Program-made: the position numbers and the translations under genes
NCBI RefSeq assembly: GCF_019320115.1
Contig: NC_089591.1
Location: 60,315,702-60,379,701, forward strand
From: Miscanthus floridulus
Taxonomy: Eukaryota; Streptophyta; Magnoliopsida; Poales; Poaceae
Length of the DNA stretch: 64,000 bases
Reading direction: 5' to 3'
In this document: piece after piece, positions 52,753 to 64,000 of the stretch
Position numbering within the stretch: the first letter of the stretch is position 1
Layout: each line of letters opens with the position of its first letter
The notes under the pieces: model-generated
Databases searched by the model: none
What the model saw: the letters and a program-made list of their open reading frames with translations, nothing else
Told to the model about the DNA's origin: nothing

Positions 52753-53423
52753 GGCGAACAAGGCCTTAATCTATGGCTCTCTAGTTAAAGGGAAATCGTG
52801 ATGCTGCCGTGTAATCACACTTTGAGTCGTCGTATTCACATGTATAGTGCAATTCTTAATCCCTAATGCGGCTTGATAGTTTGATGGCTTATATGAGCCC
52901 AATCTACAGACTCGATGAAGCGGGCAAGCTCTAAATACAAGATAGTTATTGTGGGCTTTGTTCCAACCTTGCAAGTTCCACGAGCGATCATCAACGGCAT
53001 TGCTGATAGCACACCTCCAACCTTAGAGTTGAATTCTTCCGTTTAAAAAACAAAACTCAAATCATATTGACCTACACAAGGGTTTACAACGAAAAACCAG
53101 CAGCAGTTGCTACAATAAGTAATTAAGCATCTCTACCACCAACAACTTGCTCAAAATATGTGCTTCAACAACAAAACAATCGACCACGGCAAAAACCTTA
53201 ATAAAGAGGGAAAAACCAATCACCACCAAGTCCCATAAAGACAGTCCTAAATTCATCACTAACCTGAGAAGATCAGACGACAACATATCCTTTAGATTGG
53301 ATAGGACACAAAAGGTCCTTTTTGCTTCCATGAATTATTGTCGTGGTTTTAATTTCTCACCTCTAACTCTAAAACTGAGCAAACTGACTCTCAACCCTAA
53401 ATAAAGTTTAAGTTACCGCCTTC
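52753..53423. other. Upstream region of the beta-xylosidase gene
   Basis: AT-rich DNA between the xylosidase ATG and the gypsy LTR. It should hold the promoter, but no clear TATA box or element could be assigned. Only about 670 bp separate the start codon from the retrotransposon. Confidence 0.5.
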
Positions 53424-56400
53424 TGTGACAGAACCGACCAATTATACGAAATTAAGTAAGAAAATCATCCACCAGAGCAGACGATTGACAAACTTAAGCC
53501 CGTATAACCCGGTAGTCCGTGAAATTACGAAGGATTTTAAACCAACTCGTGTCCCAGCCATGATCGTAATAAGTTTAGCGGTCACCATCACATATTACAT
53601 AAAAGTTCGCAATCTCAAATACATCAGAGTTTCAACATAGTTATTACAAACCAGTTCGAATGAAAGTAGCGGAAGTCTTTTGTTCAAATCACACACACAC
53701 GCAGAGTTGAAATATAGTGCCAGCGGATGATCATCTCCAACAAAAGCATCAGATGAGACGTAAGGAATGACCATGCCCATGGTCCTAAGCATCACCCATC
53801 GCAGGATAAAGGCAGTTGATACAGTAGCCGTAATACATCTGCCCATCTGCAACAAGTGGGAATAAAACCCTGAGTACTAGAAGGTACTCAGCCAGACTTA
53901 CCCGACATAACCGAAAATAAATGACACCAAGGATTATGAAGAGCTTTATAGTAGGGTAGCTGACTCATTTGCAAAAAGAAGCATTTTTAGCATTTCAAGA
54001 ACCTTTCTAAAAGCATTATTGCCAAGTTAATTATTATTAACCTGTCAACTAGATTTGCACCTATGCTAGAGTAAACATGTGATTAAGCAGATAATGATAA
54101 CCAATGATCATTAAACAACTTCCATACTGTCATTTTCATTATAACTATCCAAGTGTTCCATAACATTTACTACGATGAAGTAACTCAAGTCAAGTGCTCA
54201 CTATCCAGGAGCAATGGCGATTCGAATCGATTCCTAACCAGCTGGTGATTTATTCCTTACACAAACCTCACTCACCCGCTAAAGTGAGATATTGATCACC
54301 GAATCAACTTTCCAGGAATCTCGAGTTTGCCAGGAACCACATGTACCCGGGGGCCGACCGACTGCACTTTGGTCTTATCATCCCGCCCCCGTGTCCTACC
54401 ACACCTGCTCCGGTACAGTGCGTTGCGGGCAATCAACTCGGCCCGAAAAATCTCCCAGCTTCGTGGTCGGAAGGTACTTTATCCGGCCAGCTAAATGTAA
54501 GGCATGCGTTCAACATGACTCGAGGCCCAACAACGGTCGGTCCTTAGTCGACACAGACGGAAACACTACAGTCCAAAACTCTGCAAGTCTCCGTCCGGTC
54601 TCAACTTCATTTAACACTTAGTTATACCATGACTTCATAGTCATCCAAGCAGATCCAGGTAACCACCTATAGCTCGCAGGTGACAGGAAATCACCCGACT
54701 TCTACCGGTCTAAGCCAGCTAAGCATTGACTCGACTGCGGATACCAGGGTAACAAGGATATAGTATAACAAAGGTAAGCAAGGTATAATGCAGCAACGGT
54801 TGCAAACAACTCCTGAACGTAATGCATCAATTTAAAGTAAAGTATTTAATTAAATAATTGCAAACCGGGAGAAAAATGCTCCGGGGCTTGCCTCTCTCGA
54901 AGGAGCTCGGACGGTGATCAGGGCACTCCGGAAGTTCCTCAACGTCCTCCTCGTCGGCTTCTGGCACTTCCTGCTGCTGCACCTCGAGCTGCTCCTCGGG
55001 TATGACGACTGGGTTCTCGGTTTGCGATCCTGTATGATGCAATGCGCGTAAGTGATTATGAAAATGGTGCATCGAAGGAGATGGATGCAATGGATAGTTT
55101 TAAATGCAAGGTAGTCAACATCATCCAAGAACTATACTACAAGCACATGTCATCTACTGCATTCTCTTCTACTACTAATATGTTAAGTTAACCTATCTTA
55201 TGAAATGCTTCAAAGATACACCAAAGCTTTACTACTTTCTTAATCACACTTAAAGCAACACTTGCTTAAACCCTAATTAATAATAGGTTTGAATAGCAAC
55301 CTATATTTTTGATGCTCCTAAAAATCTGAGAAAATTACAGTAGCACAATACTACCCTAAACCGACTACCATAAACATTTCATGGCATTTGGATAAGTAAA
55401 CTATCCTACACAAAAATGACAAGCTATAGCATAAAAAATGAGCATGAAATTACTTTGTACTATGAAAAGTGTCAAACAACAGAATTAGTATTTTTCCTAG
55501 GTTCTTAATAGCATATAATGACTGTACAAAAATTACCACATGCATGTTTTATACAAAGTTTGCTCTCTAGCAAAAATAACAAAAATCAGCTATAAAAGGG
55601 ACTTGAACTACACCTCAAAAATTTTCCACAACACATGCATGAAACATATTTTTCCTAGGAAGTACATTACATAATAAGATTAACAAACTTGGAATCATAT
55701 TTTTATGAAGCCTATAGATTTTTCTACATATTTTTCAAGTTATCAGCAATATTCATGATTAAATAAAATCCTACAGAAAAGTATTTCAAAAATGGCATGC
55801 AAAAATTTTCCCTAGTAGATCTGATGATAAGGAACCTAGCAAAATTTGTTTCAACAAATTTGGAGCAAGTTTGATCATCCAAACATTTTTCAAACCATTT
55901 CAGATTTCAAATAATAAAGAATAAATGGAAATCAAATCATTTAAACGTTACTGGGCCAGCCCGTGGAAACGAACTGGCCCACGGCCACAATCGGCCTGCT
56001 CAGTCCGAGCGAAGGGGCGAGCGGCGGCCTGGCTCGGGGCTCGGCCCAAGCCAGCCTAGCCCAGCTCGGCCGGGCAAAGGCCACGCCACTGCGGCTGGGC
56101 CCCGCGGTTCAGAGACCCAGTGGCAGGGGAGGTGCTCGGCCACGACGGTTCTTGCCGCCGGTGAACTTGCCGGCGGTGAGGTCACCACCGGAGGTTCCTC
56201 GAGACAAGGTGGACCTAACGGTACCCCTACCACGGCCAGTGGAGCTCGGGAGCAAGCTCACCGGCGTCCATGGCGGCATGGTGGTGCGGCACAACGCCGA
56301 CCGGCCAGCTCCGGCTGAGAGGTGGCACGAGGAGTGGCTGGCGAGCTCTACCACGTCAGTGCGGTGCTGGTGCGTGCAGAAAAAGGGAGGTAGGTGAGGC

Positions 56401-57520
56401 GGAGAGGCGAGTCCCAGGGAGCGCAGCATTCCGGCGAGGCGGAGCTCACCCGGTGAGCGATTGGCGAGGAAGGGGAGCTCCCCAAGGCTTACCGAGGCGA
56501 GCCTGGGGTGCGCGAGGTGATGGCGGGGCTGTAGGCGAGACGGAGTGGTCGCCGGCGAGCTGTAGTGGCCGGGCGAGCGAGCTCCGGCAAGGCGCGGAGT
56601 GCGGTGGCGATGGCGGGCGCGCGCGCTGCTGCTGTCCGAGAGAGAGACGAAGGGAGGAGCAGGAAATGAGATGCCGGGCGAGCTCTGTGGCAGCTTAAGC
56701 AGTGGCCAGCAGCGCCAGAGCTGCCGCGGCGCGTGGATGCGGTGTCAGGCCGCCGTCGACGGGTGGCGCCACGCGGCGGGCAAACCCTGACGCGGTCGAG
56801 GGTGTGGCGCGGCGACGGGCGCGGCGCACGCGAAGCAGGCCGGACGAGCGAGCCAGCGCGGGAGCTGGGCCGAGGCGGGACACGCGCGGCAGGCGGGGAC
56901 GCGTGGGTCGGCGCGCGAGGTGGGTTCGCTGGCGCGCTGGGCCGGCTTCGGCCGTGGGCCAGAAGCGAGGCGGCGGCCCGCGAAGGAGGAAAAACATTTT
57001 TCAAATAAATTTTTTTTCAAGGAATTTAAATGCCATCTTTCAAATATTATTTTGAGCAAGAAAATGACCTCTTTTGAAAATGTACCAAAAATAAAAGTTG
57101 CTTAGAATTTAATTCTCTACAACTTTGCTTTTATGACCAAGGTCAAATTCTTTCGAGATTTTGAATTATAAAAATCAAAGTCCACGTTTAGCTCAAAACC
57201 CAAATTTTTGGAATTTATTTTTGAAGCTAAATTTTGAATTAATTTGAATACAAACATTGCTCCAAAAATTGAACTAAACATTGCCAGATGATTTGCAATA
57301 GTAGCCAACAGTTTCTACTTAACTAGCAAGCAAGAATCAGAGCAAAACAACTCTAATAAGTGTATGCATCTTTTACGTTTCACAAACATGTTTCATATGT
57401 TTCGAAGTAATGTTTCAGTTGTTATATGCAAGATTATGCAGGTATGATTAGGATGCTTGATGGTGCACGATATGTATGATTAGCAGTGCCTAAATGTAGG
57501 CATAACACCGGGGTGTTACA
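53424..57520 (-). repeat. 3' LTR of the gypsy element (4.1 kb)
   Basis: The LTR begins (minus strand) TGTAACACCCCGGTGTTATG at 57520 and ends GGTCGGTTCTGTCACA at 53424; TGTAAC and GTCACA are near-inverted ends. A GC-rich block (about 55950-56990) lies in the middle, flanked by AT-rich sequence. Open frames in the GC-rich block look compositional. No coding function is known for this LTR. Confidence 0.8.
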
Positions 57521-57566: not shown

Positions 57567-60500
57567 TCATTTGTTATAAAATTCTTCATAAGCTTTTTGT
57601 AGATACTCTCCTGTTTCCCAAGTTGCATCTCCCTCATCATGATGATCCCACTGTATCTTGTATGTTTTTACCACACTATTCCGAGTAGCACATTCCTTAG
57701 TGTCTAACACCCGTACTGGTTGTTCACGATACACCAAATCTGATTTGAGTTGGATACCTCGAGGTTCTATTCTTTCTTCCGGAACACGCAAACATTTCTT
57801 GAGATGTGATACATGGAAAACTGGGAAAACGGTACTCATTGTCTCAGGTAACTCTAACTTGTAGACTACCGGACCTCTTCGTTCCAAGATCTTGTATGGT
57901 CCTACGAATCTCGCGGCAAGCTTTCTTCGGATTCCAAACCTTTTCTTCTTCATTGGCGTGACTTTTAGATAAACATAGTCACCAACTTCAAACACAAGGG
58001 GTCTCCTTCTTTTGTCTGCATAGCTTTTTTGATGTGATTGGGCAGCTTTCATATTCTGCTGAATAATATGAACTTTCTTCTCGGCTTCTTCTATAAAGTC
58101 AATGCCATAATACCTTCTATCACCAGGCTCGATCCAATTCAATGGTGTTCTACATTTTCTGCCATATAAAGCTTCGAATGGGGCCATCTTGATGCTTTCT
58201 TGATAGCTATTATTATAAGAAAACTCAGCTAACGGTAACCATGACTCCCATGATCCCTTAGAAGACAATACACAGGCTCTCAACATATCCTCCAAAACAG
58301 CATTTACTTGTTCAGTCTGACCATCTGTCTGAGGATGATAAGCGGTACTGCGAATCAAACTAGTTCCTAAGCCTTTGTGTAAATGTTCCCAAAAATGAGC
58401 CGTGAACTGTGAGCCTCTATCAGACACTATGGTCTTTGGTATTCCATGTAACCTCACAATTTCTGCAATATATCTCTCGACATATTGAGGTGGTCGATAA
58501 TCTGTTTTGACAGGCAAGAAATGAGCGGTCTTGGTAAGATGATCCACAATTACCCAAATCGAATCATGTCCTTTTTGAGTAGTGGGCAAACCCGTGATAA
58601 AATCCATGCTGATGTTGTCCCACTTCCAACTAGGGACTGATAAGGGTTGCAACATACCGGCAGGTTTCATGTGAATGGCTTTCACTCGACAACATGTGTC
58701 ACATCTGACAACATATGCTGTAATTTCTTTCTTCATTTTGGTCCACCAATAATGAGATCTTAGTTCTTGATACATCTTACTACTTTCAGGATGGATAGAT
58801 AGCTTAGAAAGGTGAGCTTCATCCATGAGTTTATTCCTAAGCTCTCGATCCTTGGGAACCACAAGACGGTTGTCAAACCACAACACGCCCTGTTCATCCA
58901 CTTTAAAGTGTTGAGACGGCTTTTCTTTTATTTTCTCTTTGATGTGGAATATCCCCTTGTTAGTTTTCTGACCTTCTATTATCTTACTCTCCAAAGAGCA
59001 ACTAATCTGAATACTATGTAACACAGCAGGATGCATTAGATCGAATCCATCTTCAAGTAATGGCTGCACATTCAAGTAATGTGACTTTCTGCTCAAAGCA
59101 TCTGCCACTACATTGGCTTTACCAGGATGATATTGCACATTCAAGTTGTAATCCTTGATCAATTCCAACCATCTATGTTGTCTCATGTTTAGCTCTGGTT
59201 GGGTAAAGATATACTTAAGACTCTTGTGATCCATGAAAATATTGCACACATTACCAAGTAGATAATATCTCCAAATTTTGAGGGCGTGCACAACTACAGC
59301 AAGTTCAAGATCATGTGTTGGATAGTTGACCTCGTGCTTTCAAAACTGTCGTGATGCATAAGCAATGACTCTCCTTTCTTGCATAAGGACACAACCCAAT
59401 TCAGTTTTTGATGCGTCGCAAAACACATCAAATGGTTTCTCAATATCTGGTTGTGCTAGAACCGGAGCAGTGGTCAACAGTTTCCGTAAAGTATGGAAAG
59501 CTGCTTCACACTCTTCTGTCCACACAAATTTATGATCCTTCTGAAGGAGGCTTGTCATTGGTTTGGCGATCTTCGAGAAATCTGGTATAAAGCGACGGTA
59601 ATAACCGGCTAGTCCTAAGAAACTTCTAATCTCAGGAACTGTGGTCGGTGCTTTCCAATTCATAACTTCTTGCACCTTACTTGGATCGACTGAAACTCCA
59701 TTCTCTGATAGAATGTGACCAAGGAAAGGAACTTCCTTCAACCAGAATTCGCATTTGCTAAACTTAGCATACAATTGATGATCTCTAAGTCTGGTCAAGA
59801 CAGTTCTCAGATGCTCTTCATGATCTTTTTCGTTCTCGGAGTACACCAGAATGTCATCGATGAACACTACCACAAACTTATCCAATTCTGGCATGAAAAC
59901 TGTATTCATCAAAAACATAAAGTATGCGGGAGCATTCGTCAAGCCAAAAGACATGACAAGATACTCATACAACCCGTATCTGGTGGAAAATGCAGTTTTC
60001 GGTATATCCTGTGGCCTAATCTTGATCTGATGATAACCGGATCCCAAATCAATTTTTGAGAACACCTTGGCCTTGGATAATTGGTCAAACAGAACATCAA
60101 TATGAGGCAAGGGATATTTATTCTTGATGGTCACAGCGTTGAGTGGCCTATAATCTACGCACATTCTCAACGTGCCCTCTTTCTTTTTCTTCACAAACAA
60201 AGCGGGACATCCCCATTCAGACTTGCTTGGCCGAATAAACCCCTTTTTCGACAAATCTTCTAATTGCTTCTTTAGCTCAGCTAACTCATCTGGAGGCATC
60301 CGATAAGGTCTCCTTGAAATCAGAGCTGTTCCGGAGACTAGCTCAATTCCAAACTCAATCTCCCTATCTGGCGGAAGACCAGGTAGCTCATCCGGAAATA
60401 CGTCTGGGAACTCACACACTACCAGAATCTGATGAATAGGAGTGACTGCCGTAGCACATGTAACACTTATAAGGTCTAATCTTTGAGGCAATTGTACTTG

Positions 60501-62045
60501 GAAAGTACCCTCACCCAAGGGATCCTTAAGGGTAAGTACTCGACTTCCCGTATCTATGACTGCTCCCCAATCTTTCATCCAATTCATCTCTATAATGACA
60601 TCCAAAACTAATCCAGGCATAACTATTAAGTTCACTCGGAACTTCCTGCTACCTAATTCAAGGGTTGCCCCTCGAACCATCTGGTTGGTCAAAACATCAG
60701 CCCCTGCTGAACTTATACGATACCCATAACCCAATTCTGTGCATAGTTGTCCATGTTTCTGTGCAAATGCTTGACTCATAAAAGAATGCGATGATCCAGA
60801 ATCAAATAGAACAACTGCAGGGTTTTCGTTGATAGGAAACTTACCAGCAGTGACGGGCTCTCCCTCTAGAATTTCATCCACCGTTGTACTATGCACTCTA
60901 GCATTATAAGTTTGCTGCTTCTTCTTAGGCGGGTACGGACAAAACCTCGAGAAATGACCGGGTTGATCACAGTTATAGCAGGGTCCTCTTACTGTCCCGG
61001 CAGATCCCACAGCTCCCTTGGAACTGCCTTGCACCGCAGTTGCGGCTGCTTTGTTGGGCTGTACTGCCATCTTGTACGGCTTTTGAGGTCCACAGAAATT
61101 CTGACTTCTTGGCTGAGGTGGCCGGAATCTAGCGCCAGGTGCCGATGGGCGATATGGAGGACGACCTCCCATAGGTGCTCTAGCTTGAGACGGCCCTCCT
61201 TCAAAGGCTCTCTTGCGTGTCTTGGCTATGGTGCTGGCATTGTTATTCTTTTCCTGCTTCAGACAGTCGCTGATGAAGTCATTGAATCTGACGCGGTTGT
61301 TGGTACCAACATGCTTCATCATTTTTGGATTGAGACCCCTCTTAAAGCTGGCTATTCTCTTAGCATCTGTGTCAACCATGTCGGGAGCATAGCGACATAA
61401 GTTGTTGAAAGCATGCAGGTATTGCGTCACGGTCTTGGTACCCTGGTTCAATGCCAGAAACTCTCCCAACTTCATCTCTGTCAGCCCGGGTGGAATATAG
61501 ACTCCACGGAAGGCCTCAGCAAACTCTCTCCAAGAAATTTGAGCATTTGGAGGGAAGGTGGTGCGATGGTGCTTCCACCACATTCCCGCCGGTTCTTACA
61601 ATTGAAGTGCAGCATATTCCATTTTCAGCACCTCAGTCATTCTCAACACATGGAATTTATCTTCCATCGTGTTGATCCATTCCTCAGCATCGAGTGGCTC
61701 TGTTGCTTCCTTGAATACTGGTGGCCTGGTGTCCATGAAATCTTTGAAGCTGCTATATTGGTTCACTCCCATGCCACCACCTTGATTGTTACCACGTTGA
61801 ACGTTGTTGGCGATGGTTCGAAGAAGATCCTCCATGTTCTTCTGAGATTGTTCCGCGTTGCGCTGACTCCCGAGCAGCTGTGCGAGGAACATCTCAGGGG
61901 TAAACGGGGGAGGAGGTGGCAAATGCGGTTCATGGGGAGGTTCATTGTTGTTGCTGTGGTTTCCACCACCACCACCACCACCGGTCTCCGCACCGTTGGC
62001 ACCGGGCTCAGCGGCCTCATACGTGGTTCAGCGAGTGTTTGTCAT
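57567..62045 (-). pseudogene. Gypsy gag-pol polyprotein
   Basis: One frame of 1,493 codons including the terminal stop, from ATG at 62045 to the stop at 57567. Gag has WINTMEDKFHVL and [18 protein letters not shown], then a zinc knuckle [14 protein letters not shown]. The protease has [12 protein letters not shown]. Reverse transcriptase has [19 protein letters not shown]. RNase H has [14 protein letters not shown]. The integrase shows H-H/C-C residues (CDTCCRVK), MDFITGLP and [12 protein letters not shown]. The end [14 protein letters not shown] looks like a chromodomain, which in related elements steers integration to marked chromatin. Only three stops interrupt it: TGA at 62030, TAA at 61598 and TGA at 59342. 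Each fits a single C-to-T change in CGA or CAA, and there are no frameshifts. The copy is inactive but recently so. Confidence 0.92.
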
Positions 62046-62411
62046 CTGCATATTTCAGCAACAAGTACGATTGAGTGACGCTGTAATAATTGCGAGTGAA
62101 GGAAAAATTATGCCATACTGAATTTACTGGAGAGAATAAATTCATACAATAAAAACAGAGGCACAACAATCGCATTCCAATTAAAACAACAACACTTAAT
62201 CGAATTACTTCAACGGCAAACATTGCGTCCATACAATCACATTGCCAGCATACATACACTGGACTTTTTATGCGTTTAGATATCGCATTCGAAAATCAAG
62301 TTCCAACCATATGCCAAGTCTCATACGTTCGAAGCAACACACGATAGATTACATGCCAACAAAAGAAAGGTCATCGCGACAAGACCTAGATACTAACGCA
62401 AAGCAACTAGC
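62046..62411 (-). other. Spacer between the extra ORF and gag-pol
   Basis: AT-rich, with no coding sequence recognised. A second promoter, a splice acceptor or a re-initiation site for gag-pol could lie here; none could be identified with confidence. Confidence 0.4.
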
Positions 62412-63401
62412 CTACTCCTCGGGGCCATCGTCAGGATCGGAGACGTCACCATCGCCCCTAGGTGAAACTGCAGGCTCGTCCTCGTTGTCGTTGTCAACGT
62501 CCATGCCAGCGACATTCGGTGGAGCATATGGGCCAACCCCATTGTAGAGCGTGTGAAACTCCTCGTGCAAGTAGCTGTTGTATTCCTCTAGCTCATCGAC
62601 CCTCTGCAGCAGAAGGTTTCTTGCGTTCCAGGCTTCATTCCTTTCTTGAACCAGCTGTCCAATCATGCGGTCTGCATTGTTGTTGGCTTGAGTTAACGTA
62701 TGCACTCGCTGCATAGCTCTATCACCTCTCTCAACCGCTTGATCTTGCTGTAAGTTCATATCAGCCAACTGCTCCTACAAGCTAGCTATAGCTCGTGCCT
62801 GTCTCTTCTTCTGCTTCTTTCCCTTGAGCTTATCCTCACTACGCAAGCAAGTCAAAGTCCAGTAGGTACTCTCGAGACCCTCATACGCTCTGATGGCGGC
62901 GAACATAGCACTCATTACCTGGTTGTCGCTAGCCTGTCCCTCAGCTGGACCTCTGACCAATGCACTTCCCGGAGGCTGAACCCAAATGGCATCGCAAGGA
63001 TCATCCCTAGGAAAAGTACCAGCTAGAGCTGCTGCAAGCTTACTAGGAAATCTGCTCATAATGTCCCTGATGACACGGAAGGCTGCTCCCTCTGCACCCT
63101 CAGCTGGAGTACGACCCTCAAACTCCAAATGCCAACCATCCCAATCTGGAGCATCACCGAGAGCAGGAACCGTGATCTCCACCACTGCGAGTCCATCCTC
63201 TGCTAACTGGCTCTCATTCCAAGAGTACACCGGCTCTTGACCCTCTGGGTACCCCACATCATGGAGCACTCTCCAAAGCAAAGTTGGCATGCCAAACTCA
63301 CTCAAGAAGGTGTCTGTGGTGCGGTGCTCCCTCAGGGCCAACGGACGTCGAGGTGCTCTTCCTCCGGTGGACTTACAGGCGGTCTGCTTCGTGCGGGCCA
63401 T
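62412..63401 (-). pseudogene. Extra gypsy ORF with histone H3-tail-like N-terminus
   Basis: The ATG at 63401 opens a 330-codon frame (counting the terminal stop), interrupted once by TAG at 62777-62775 (context ASL-stop-EQLADM), where CAG fits a coiled coil. Residues 1-19 are MARTKQTACKSTGGRAPRR. Histone H3 has the same order with Arg for Cys8, Lys for Arg14 and Lys for Arg18; Leu20-Ala21 also match. The middle (TLLWRVLHDVGYPEGQEPVY and onwards) has no histone fold and is unknown to me. It then has a basic stretch (KLKGKKQKKRQAR), a coiled coil (about 62760-62560) and an acidic tail rich in Asp/Glu (DVDNDNEDE). It lies upstream of gag in the same sense, about 370 bp away, as accessory ORFs do. 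The role is unknown; imitation of the H3 tail is my inference. Confidence 0.7.
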
Positions 63402-64000
63402 CTGTAGCAAAAGTTCTCTTATTACCCCAGGGAAACATATTTTAGGTGATACAACTTTTATCAAAATGAGATAATCAATTTATAAGGGGAGGAATGCATG
63501 AGATGAATGAGATGCACAAGTAACATGATGTATGTACGTGCCGTACGTTCTCACAAACTTAGGAAATAATAATTTCTAACGACGAATTCGGTGGCATAAC
63601 AACGATCTCTCAAATACGTAGCTAATACATTCTACACGATATCGTTGTTATATACCTGCAGAAGATTCATTTCAGCCCAATTCCCAATGAATGCATAAAA
63701 GCAGTAAAGTGTTATCTACACGCTCTACACGAATCCCCAGATACGTGTACAATGGTAGTAACTACCCGAACCATCGTCCTATTGACGGCATCGCCTCCAC
63801 CGACGGAAGACCCTTACATGGGACACCTTTGTAAAACATGCGTAGAACATGTAATTACTCCAGCATCATATAAGCATTCACCCTAGATCGGCAGTGTATC
63901 CGATCATGCTCTCACAACTCACACTTACCGAGGCGTAGAGGCAAATGATCCATTCATTACCACTCAAACAAGTGGCACTCATACAATAGCACGCCGTATG
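63402..64000 (-). other. Gypsy 5' untranslated internal region
   Basis: No primer binding site or LTR sequence was recognised up to the edge of the window, and the sequence does not resemble the 3' LTR. It should be leader RNA of the element. Confidence 0.5.

Follow-up and report, generated by a model that had tools for sequence, protein, structure and literature searches.

In a 64,000-nucleotide stretch of the Miscanthus floridulus genome (contig NC_089591.1, positions 60,315,702 to 60,379,701; hereafter the window), a long terminal repeat (LTR) retrotransposon carries an extra open reading frame (ORF), ORF0, whose protein begins with a close likeness of the N-terminal tail of histone H3. 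The tail is conserved at the protein level between two old subfamilies of the element, A and B, and is apparently kept by selection. ORF0 is read here as an accessory protein with a captured H3.3-type first exon as its N-terminus, acting as an anti-silencing decoy of H3; the probability of this reading is put at roughly one half.

The H3-like N-terminus of ORF0

In the window copy, the N-terminal part of ORF0 is situated at 62775..63401 on the minus strand (208 codons, then an in-frame TAG as codon 209), and its translation starts MARTKQTACKSTGGRAPRRPLA. The tail, codons 1-22 (63336..63401, minus), corresponds to Met plus H3 residues 1-21, as supported by the translation, PDB searches and copy samples. 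Seventeen of the 21 residues are equal to those of H3, with mismatches only at residues 8, 14, 18 and 19, exactly as an earlier note, made from the letters of the window, had described. In a phmmer search of the window ORF0 against PDB chains, H3 chains or peptides fill every one of the best 60 of 133 rows, with a top E of 1e-4. A six-sequence ORF0 profile reaches H3 at E 7.6e-8, and the best 60 of its 143 rows are H3 chains, peptides and variants. The likeness fades past approximately residue 21, and the H3 matches among the rows listed stop by ORF0-profile residue 35. No histone family was matched by Pfam in the rest of ORF0, and the comparison of ORF0 with Pfam and NCBIfam gave nothing significant. 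The translation and the PDB matches thus identify the H3-like peptide as part of a mobile-element protein that is not a histone. An identity of ORF0 as an H3 gene or pseudogene was rejected, since the histone fold is absent downstream of the tail.

This start is widespread in the genome. A degenerate DNA pattern encoding MARTKQTA occurs exactly at 2142 places of the 2.68 Gb genome, against none for the reversed control; the sites must include some host H3 genes, and 20 of them were read. These 20, a systematic sample (one site in five among the first 100, which all lie on contig C1, with codons 1-8 fixed as amino acids by the pattern), are all ORF0 and none is an H3 gene; 7 belong to subfamily A, that of the window, and 13 to subfamily B. 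A second sample, independent of the tail, was drawn with the tail-less core of a B copy as the query, 20 copies being spread over the best 150 of 7664 candidates. The tail is present in all 20, the ATG is kept in 18, and one copy has a stop at residue 19; these are best-scoring copies, and older or more distant relatives, possibly tail-less, lie outside the sample. Furthermore, with the whole window ORF0 as the query, each of the best 150 of 9031 candidates spans residues 1-208, and they are distributed over many contigs. The question raised by the earlier note, whether other copies keep the tail, is answered in the affirmative for the copies sampled in this genome, and neither of the adverse signs that it had named, tail-less relatives or an out-of-frame start, was met among the best-scoring copies. 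Chance likeness, contamination or an assembly artefact is refuted by the site counts, the spread over many contigs and the profile match to H3; nothing was found in its favour, and its probability is practically nil.

The tail of subfamily A is mostly ARTKQTARKSTGGRAPRRPLA and that of subfamily B mostly ARTKQTARKSTGGRAPSRQLA, each equal to H3 1-21 at 18 of 21 residues. In both subfamilies, Arg replaces Lys at residues 14 and 18, thereby removing two acetylation sites, and K4, R8, K9 and S10 are retained. Residue 8 is Arg in 24 of 30 compared loci (L009-L038, window included), in 16/20 systematic and in 19/20 tail-independent copies. Since Arg8 is the commonest state across copies, the Cys8 of the window represents a decayed Arg codon, and the suggestion of the earlier note that the ancestor was closer to H3 holds. 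Among 65 extracted starts, a set partly chosen by tail likeness, K4, T6, K9, S10 and T11 are invariant; in the two samples of 20 pooled, K9 is present in 40/40, S10 in 39/40 and T11 in 38/40. A separate observation concerns an older B copy, L079 (G000:C1:56322565-56322865), which has Lys14 as in H3, either an ancestral state or a later change.

The tail could also be regarded as a plain basic peptide, serving nuclear localisation or forming a nucleic-acid-binding end of ORF0 for packaging. The first 30 residues of ORF0 indeed have a net charge of +7 in both subfamilies, and the replacement of K14 and K18 by Arg preserves charge. However, the uncharged A1, T3, Q5, T6, S10 and G13 are each retained in 20/20 of the tail-independent copies, just like the Arg and Lys residues, and a role of charge alone would permit drift at these positions; such a peptide is an unlikely account of the tail.

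Conservation and origin of the tail

The body of ORF0 is 48% identical between open A and B copies. Over the whole ORF0, the non-synonymous divergence (dN) between the subfamilies is approximately 0.45, with a synonymous divergence (dS) of 2.7-2.9 or saturated. In the tail codons 2-17, dN falls to 0.029 with a dS of 0.90. The sole non-synonymous tail change in this set is at residue 8, and the B copies carrying it were found with a Cys8 query. When majority codons are compared, the A and B tails (codons 2-17) differ by 7 synonymous and 0 non-synonymous changes, and the tail-independent sample reads alike; a Fisher test of non-synonymous sites, tail versus body, gives approximately 1e-5, with the counts rounded. 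Recent gene conversion with H3 was also considered and rejected, because of the seven synonymous A-B differences.

A genome search for H3 yielded 97 matches, and the 5' ends of 9 intron-bearing and 11 intronless genes were compared with the tail. The 9 intron-bearing genes, which we take to be H3.3-type on the basis of their introns, have a first coding exon consisting of codons 1-24. In all 20 systematic copies, the 66-nt tail DNA has its nearest H3 gene among the intron-bearing ones, ahead of all 11 intronless genes; these 20 comparisons involve related copies and amount to two or three observations. The best match to an intron-bearing gene is 55/66 for B and 53/66 for A. Compared with random synonymous recoding, a rough null, the observed codon sharing has a P of 0.0003 for B, 0.027 for A and 0.045 for an older B copy. 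The homology between the tail and H3 stops at codon 22, two codons before the exon end. An AG is located directly 5' of the ATG in 6 of the 9 intron-bearing genes: a clear pyrimidine-rich acceptor precedes the ATG in L093-L095, another possible acceptor lies just upstream in L091-L092, and in L099 the AG stands in a GA-rich context unlike an acceptor. The nearest H3 gene is L099 for A and mostly L092, L095 or L098 for B, which leaves more than one candidate donor.

Altogether, these comparisons suggest that an intron-bearing H3.3-type gene was probably the source of the tail, by way of its first coding exon and perhaps also of the acceptor of that exon. The earlier note had stated that ORF0 has no histone fold and is not an H3 capture in the simple sense; the first part agrees with the Pfam result, whereas the DNA comparison favours exon capture. 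Apart from this, two intronless H3-like genes, L108 and L109 (G000:C10:104496110-104496369 and C16:19988817-19989076), have Arg18 like the ORF0 tail, and their match to H3 ends at about residue 121-122.

The element, its leader and the ORF0 core

ORF0 is situated between the 5' LTR and gag-pol. The gag-pol frame (57567..62045, minus; 1492 codons) contains gag, protease, reverse transcriptase, RNase H and integrase domains, and its reading is interrupted at codons 6, 150 and 902 by in-frame stops; the window copy is damaged, with stops in both ORF0 and gag-pol. The part of the 3' LTR aligning to the 5' LTR lies at 53423..56914 (minus), and the 5' LTR is found outside the window at C12:60379891-60383405. 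An assembly gap (run of N) from C12:60383406 abuts the 5' LTR on its outer side. Over 3377 aligned sites, a length of more than 3 kb, the two LTRs show 42 differences; with a Kimura two-parameter distance of 0.0126 and the grass substitution rate of 1.3e-8, the insertion dates to about 0.5 million years. The pol end carries a weak chromodomain-like segment (57582..57716, minus), matched by Pfam Chromo at E 0.0063, below the curated cut-off, and by the Clr4 chromodomain at E 0.022. The chromodomain-like end proposed by the earlier note is therefore seen as a weak match, short of the level at which Pfam would accept it. By its sequence, the element appears to represent a Ty3 chromovirus-like family.

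Beyond the stop at codon 209, the ORF0 frame of the window continues at 62412..62774 (minus) with a coiled-coil-like part and an acidic C-terminus, as judged from the sequence and from other loci. Of the 30 loci, 18 have an ORF0 that is open over 329 codons, and two copies of subfamily B are open over 307 and 308 codons. The earlier note thus placed the ORF correctly upstream of gag, but took as its extent a frame that the stop had cut short. A basic stretch, KLKGKKQKKRQAR (62793..62831, minus), is a possible nuclear localisation signal in subfamily A and is absent from the aligned B copies. As a side observation, the B copy near L129 (G000:C10:43659223-43659663, minus) is contained in a 1142-aa open frame, and its match includes one TAG; the frame is far longer than in other copies and possibly reads through into a neighbouring frame.

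Directly 5' of the ORF0 ATG, the sequence cttttgctacag (63402..63413, minus) resembles a 3' splice site, and an AG immediately precedes the start codon position in 20/20 tail-independent and 20/20 systematic copies. A 5' splice-site-like GTAAGT is located in the leader at 63923..63928 (minus), and five of the six A copies examined have the exact GGTAAGT approximately 530 nt ahead of the ORF0 ATG. A second 3' splice-site-like sequence, ctgaaatatgcag (62046..62058, minus), lies directly 5' of the gag ATG; in the 30-locus comparison, CAG precedes this ATG in 30/30 loci and the whole of ctgaaatatgcag in 29/30, and although the search pattern demanded AG, no locus failed it. The window leader is 789 nt long and contains 21 ATGs ahead of ORF0. 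Judging from these motifs, alternative acceptors could place either ORF first in the mRNA.

Residues 36-120 of ORF0 (63042..63296, minus) are predicted to form an alpha-beta-beta-beta-alpha domain with a fold like that of double-stranded-RNA-binding domains (dsRBDs), in a model with a mean predicted local distance difference test (pLDDT) score of 64. The whole-protein model (P0001) has a mean pLDDT of 49 and is too poor by itself. With the model of residues 29-136, the top fold matches are TRBP dsRBD3, Loquacious dsRBD3, Staufen dsRBD5, DRB7.2 and DCL4 dsRBD2; for both models nothing reached E <=0.001 with Foldseek against the PDB, and besides DCL4 and other dsRBDs the list contains ribosome-hibernation factors and unrelated chains. 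The BFVD viral fold search with the core likewise gave nothing at E <=0.001, its top rows being mixed, and Pfam found no dsRBD family in ORF0 and no match at all to residues 36-120. In the dsRBD motif that binds dsRNA, lysines are situated at the start of helix 2. Such lysines are absent from ORF0 (GRTPAEGAEGAA / GRTAEEAAGRAA), making RNA binding of the usual type unlikely, and the predicted domain is acidic.

Proposed working of ORF0 and its relation to known systems

From the sequence features above, we infer the following course. A host H3.3-type first coding exon would have been captured and kept as the N-terminus of ORF0, and a spliced leader joined to the AG|ATG would allow translation from that ATG. 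The initiator Met would be cleaved off ahead of Ala, as happens in H3, so that the protein starts with a free A-R-T-K, which host H3 readers and writers may bind or methylate at K4 and K9. SUVH-type H3K9 methyltransferases and CMT chromodomains are candidate partners of the tail, and the SAWADEE domain of SHH1, reading unmethylated K4 together with K9me2, is another. Drawn off the chromatin of the element itself, such readers and writers would leave new copies less silenced. Meanwhile, the acidic dsRBD-fold domain may serve to bind other proteins, perhaps DCL or DRB proteins, which would provide a further grip on RNA-directed silencing. In the fullest form of this proposal, the captured and selected H3.3 exon on a dsRBD-fold protein would constitute a two-sided anti-silencing factor, combining a K4me0/K9 decoy, non-acetylatable at 14 and 18, with the holding of DCL or DRB proteins, and would have helped the element to spread to about two thousand sites; this combination is offered tentatively, at odds well short of even.

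The main rival of the decoy reading is docking to the integrase chromodomain of the element itself. Chromodomains bind the K9 region of H3. Accordingly, the host-methylated K9 of ORF0 could be bound by this chromodomain or by a host HP1-like reader, so that ORF0 would ride on the integration complex or shield the chromodomain until integration. The weak chromodomain-like pol end and the retention of the K9 region in the copies are in keeping with such docking. However, the chromodomain match is below the curated cut-off and the domain may have lost methyl-lysine binding, docking presupposes that ORF0 is present in particles, and a ligand of K9 only would not require the retained residues 1-6. 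Docking therefore has a limited chance of being correct, somewhat better than that of a plain basic peptide.

Several results weigh against the decoy reading. Within the tail, most B copies have Ser in place of H3 R17. For the tail, a McDonald-Kreitman-type test, with post-insertion decay as the neutral reference and 17 of 20 sampled copies (the older B copies L079, L082 and L084 being omitted before counting), is not significant (P 0.18; P 0.37 against all decay), and the ORF0 body leans the opposite way, with an excess of non-synonymous divergence (P 0.028). The synonymous divergence of the tail is somewhat below that of the body (P 0.08), which may reflect some constraint at the DNA level. 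A second block, residues ~30-45 (EFGMPTLLWRVL), is equally conserved at 15/16. In the leader, the exact donor is found in 0 of 4 B copies, one of which has an aligned GGTAAG, and is missing from 1 of 6 A copies; in the window copy, a transcript spliced from this donor would keep five upstream ATGs. As for the core, its fold is a single-sequence prediction with a mean pLDDT of 64 and a best Foldseek E of 0.069 in a mixed list, and a tail-less core profile gave 7 weak matches in the PDB, none of them a dsRBD.

The McDonald-Kreitman-type result is also compatible with a relic of exon capture, in which the H3 exon contributed a good splice acceptor along with a start codon and the peptide is idle. 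The retained AG directly before the ATG and the nearness of the tail DNA to H3.3-type first coding exons fit such a relic. Nevertheless, an idle peptide accords poorly with 7 synonymous and 0 non-synonymous changes in codons 2-17 of subfamilies that are 48% identical elsewhere (the Fisher test above), and this explanation is considered improbable, more so than the basic peptide.

ORF0 is known from the grass Ty3 elements Retrosat2, RIRE3, RIRE8, FRetro3, Sorsat2, ZMsat2 and Brasat2 (Gao et al. 2012, PMC3485330). In that account, the LTRs of Retrosat2, RIRE3 and RIRE8 are ~3 kb or more, divergence is faster in ORF0 than in ORF1, ORF0 has no assigned role in transposition, its predicted functions are hydrolase, acyltransferase or transporter, and the word histone does not occur in the main text (PMC3485330). 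The window element resembles Retrosat2, RIRE3 and RIRE8 in the extra ORF upstream of gag-pol and in an LTR of ~3 kb or more, as far as the published descriptions go. The terminal repeat of Retrosat2/RIRE8, TGTCACACCC...GGGCGTGACA, was not matched by the 3' end of the window LTR, ...TTCTGTCACA, the end compared. The window element thus belongs to a lineage related to, and not identical with, Retrosat2 or RIRE8.

A few animal viruses are known to mimic histones by means of short motifs. In the case of influenza A NS1, a well-known H3 mimic, an H3-like C-terminus engages the host H3-binding machinery (PMC12937675). ORF0 likewise carries an H3-tail-like peptide in a foreign protein and is proposed to engage the host; unlike NS1, it reproduces the H3 N-terminus in place, over ~21 residues, and probably from a host exon. 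In RNA-directed DNA methylation, the SHH1 SAWADEE domain is described as reading H3K9me2 and unmethylated H3K4 (PMC7714444). This is the stretch retained in ORF0, for which SHH1, a host reader, is a candidate target and not a relative. The predicted core fold is similar to the dsRBDs of TRBP, Loquacious, Staufen, DRB7.2 and DCL4, but ORF0 is acidic and has neither a profile match nor the usual lysines. VANC of the VANDAL elements is an anti-silencing protein of plant mobile elements. A similar role is proposed for ORF0, by way of H3 mimicry, and we know of no sequence shared by the two. No description of an H3-like tail in a retrotransposon was found in the literature titles and abstracts searched, which for some of the searches covered part of the matches, and the peptide TKQTARKSTGGRAP does not occur in the papers text-searched, an absence that does not amount to absence from print.

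If the decoy reading is true, nature would here provide a strong example of a mobile element that attacks or exploits the histone code. The case rests on the roughly two thousand sites with an H3 N-terminus, which appears to come from a host exon and to have been preserved as the remainder of the protein diverged. The ORF0 of grass Ty3 elements, so far without a function, would gain a testable role, and the question would be raised of how the host deals with an H3 decoy of possibly high abundance during the activity of the element.
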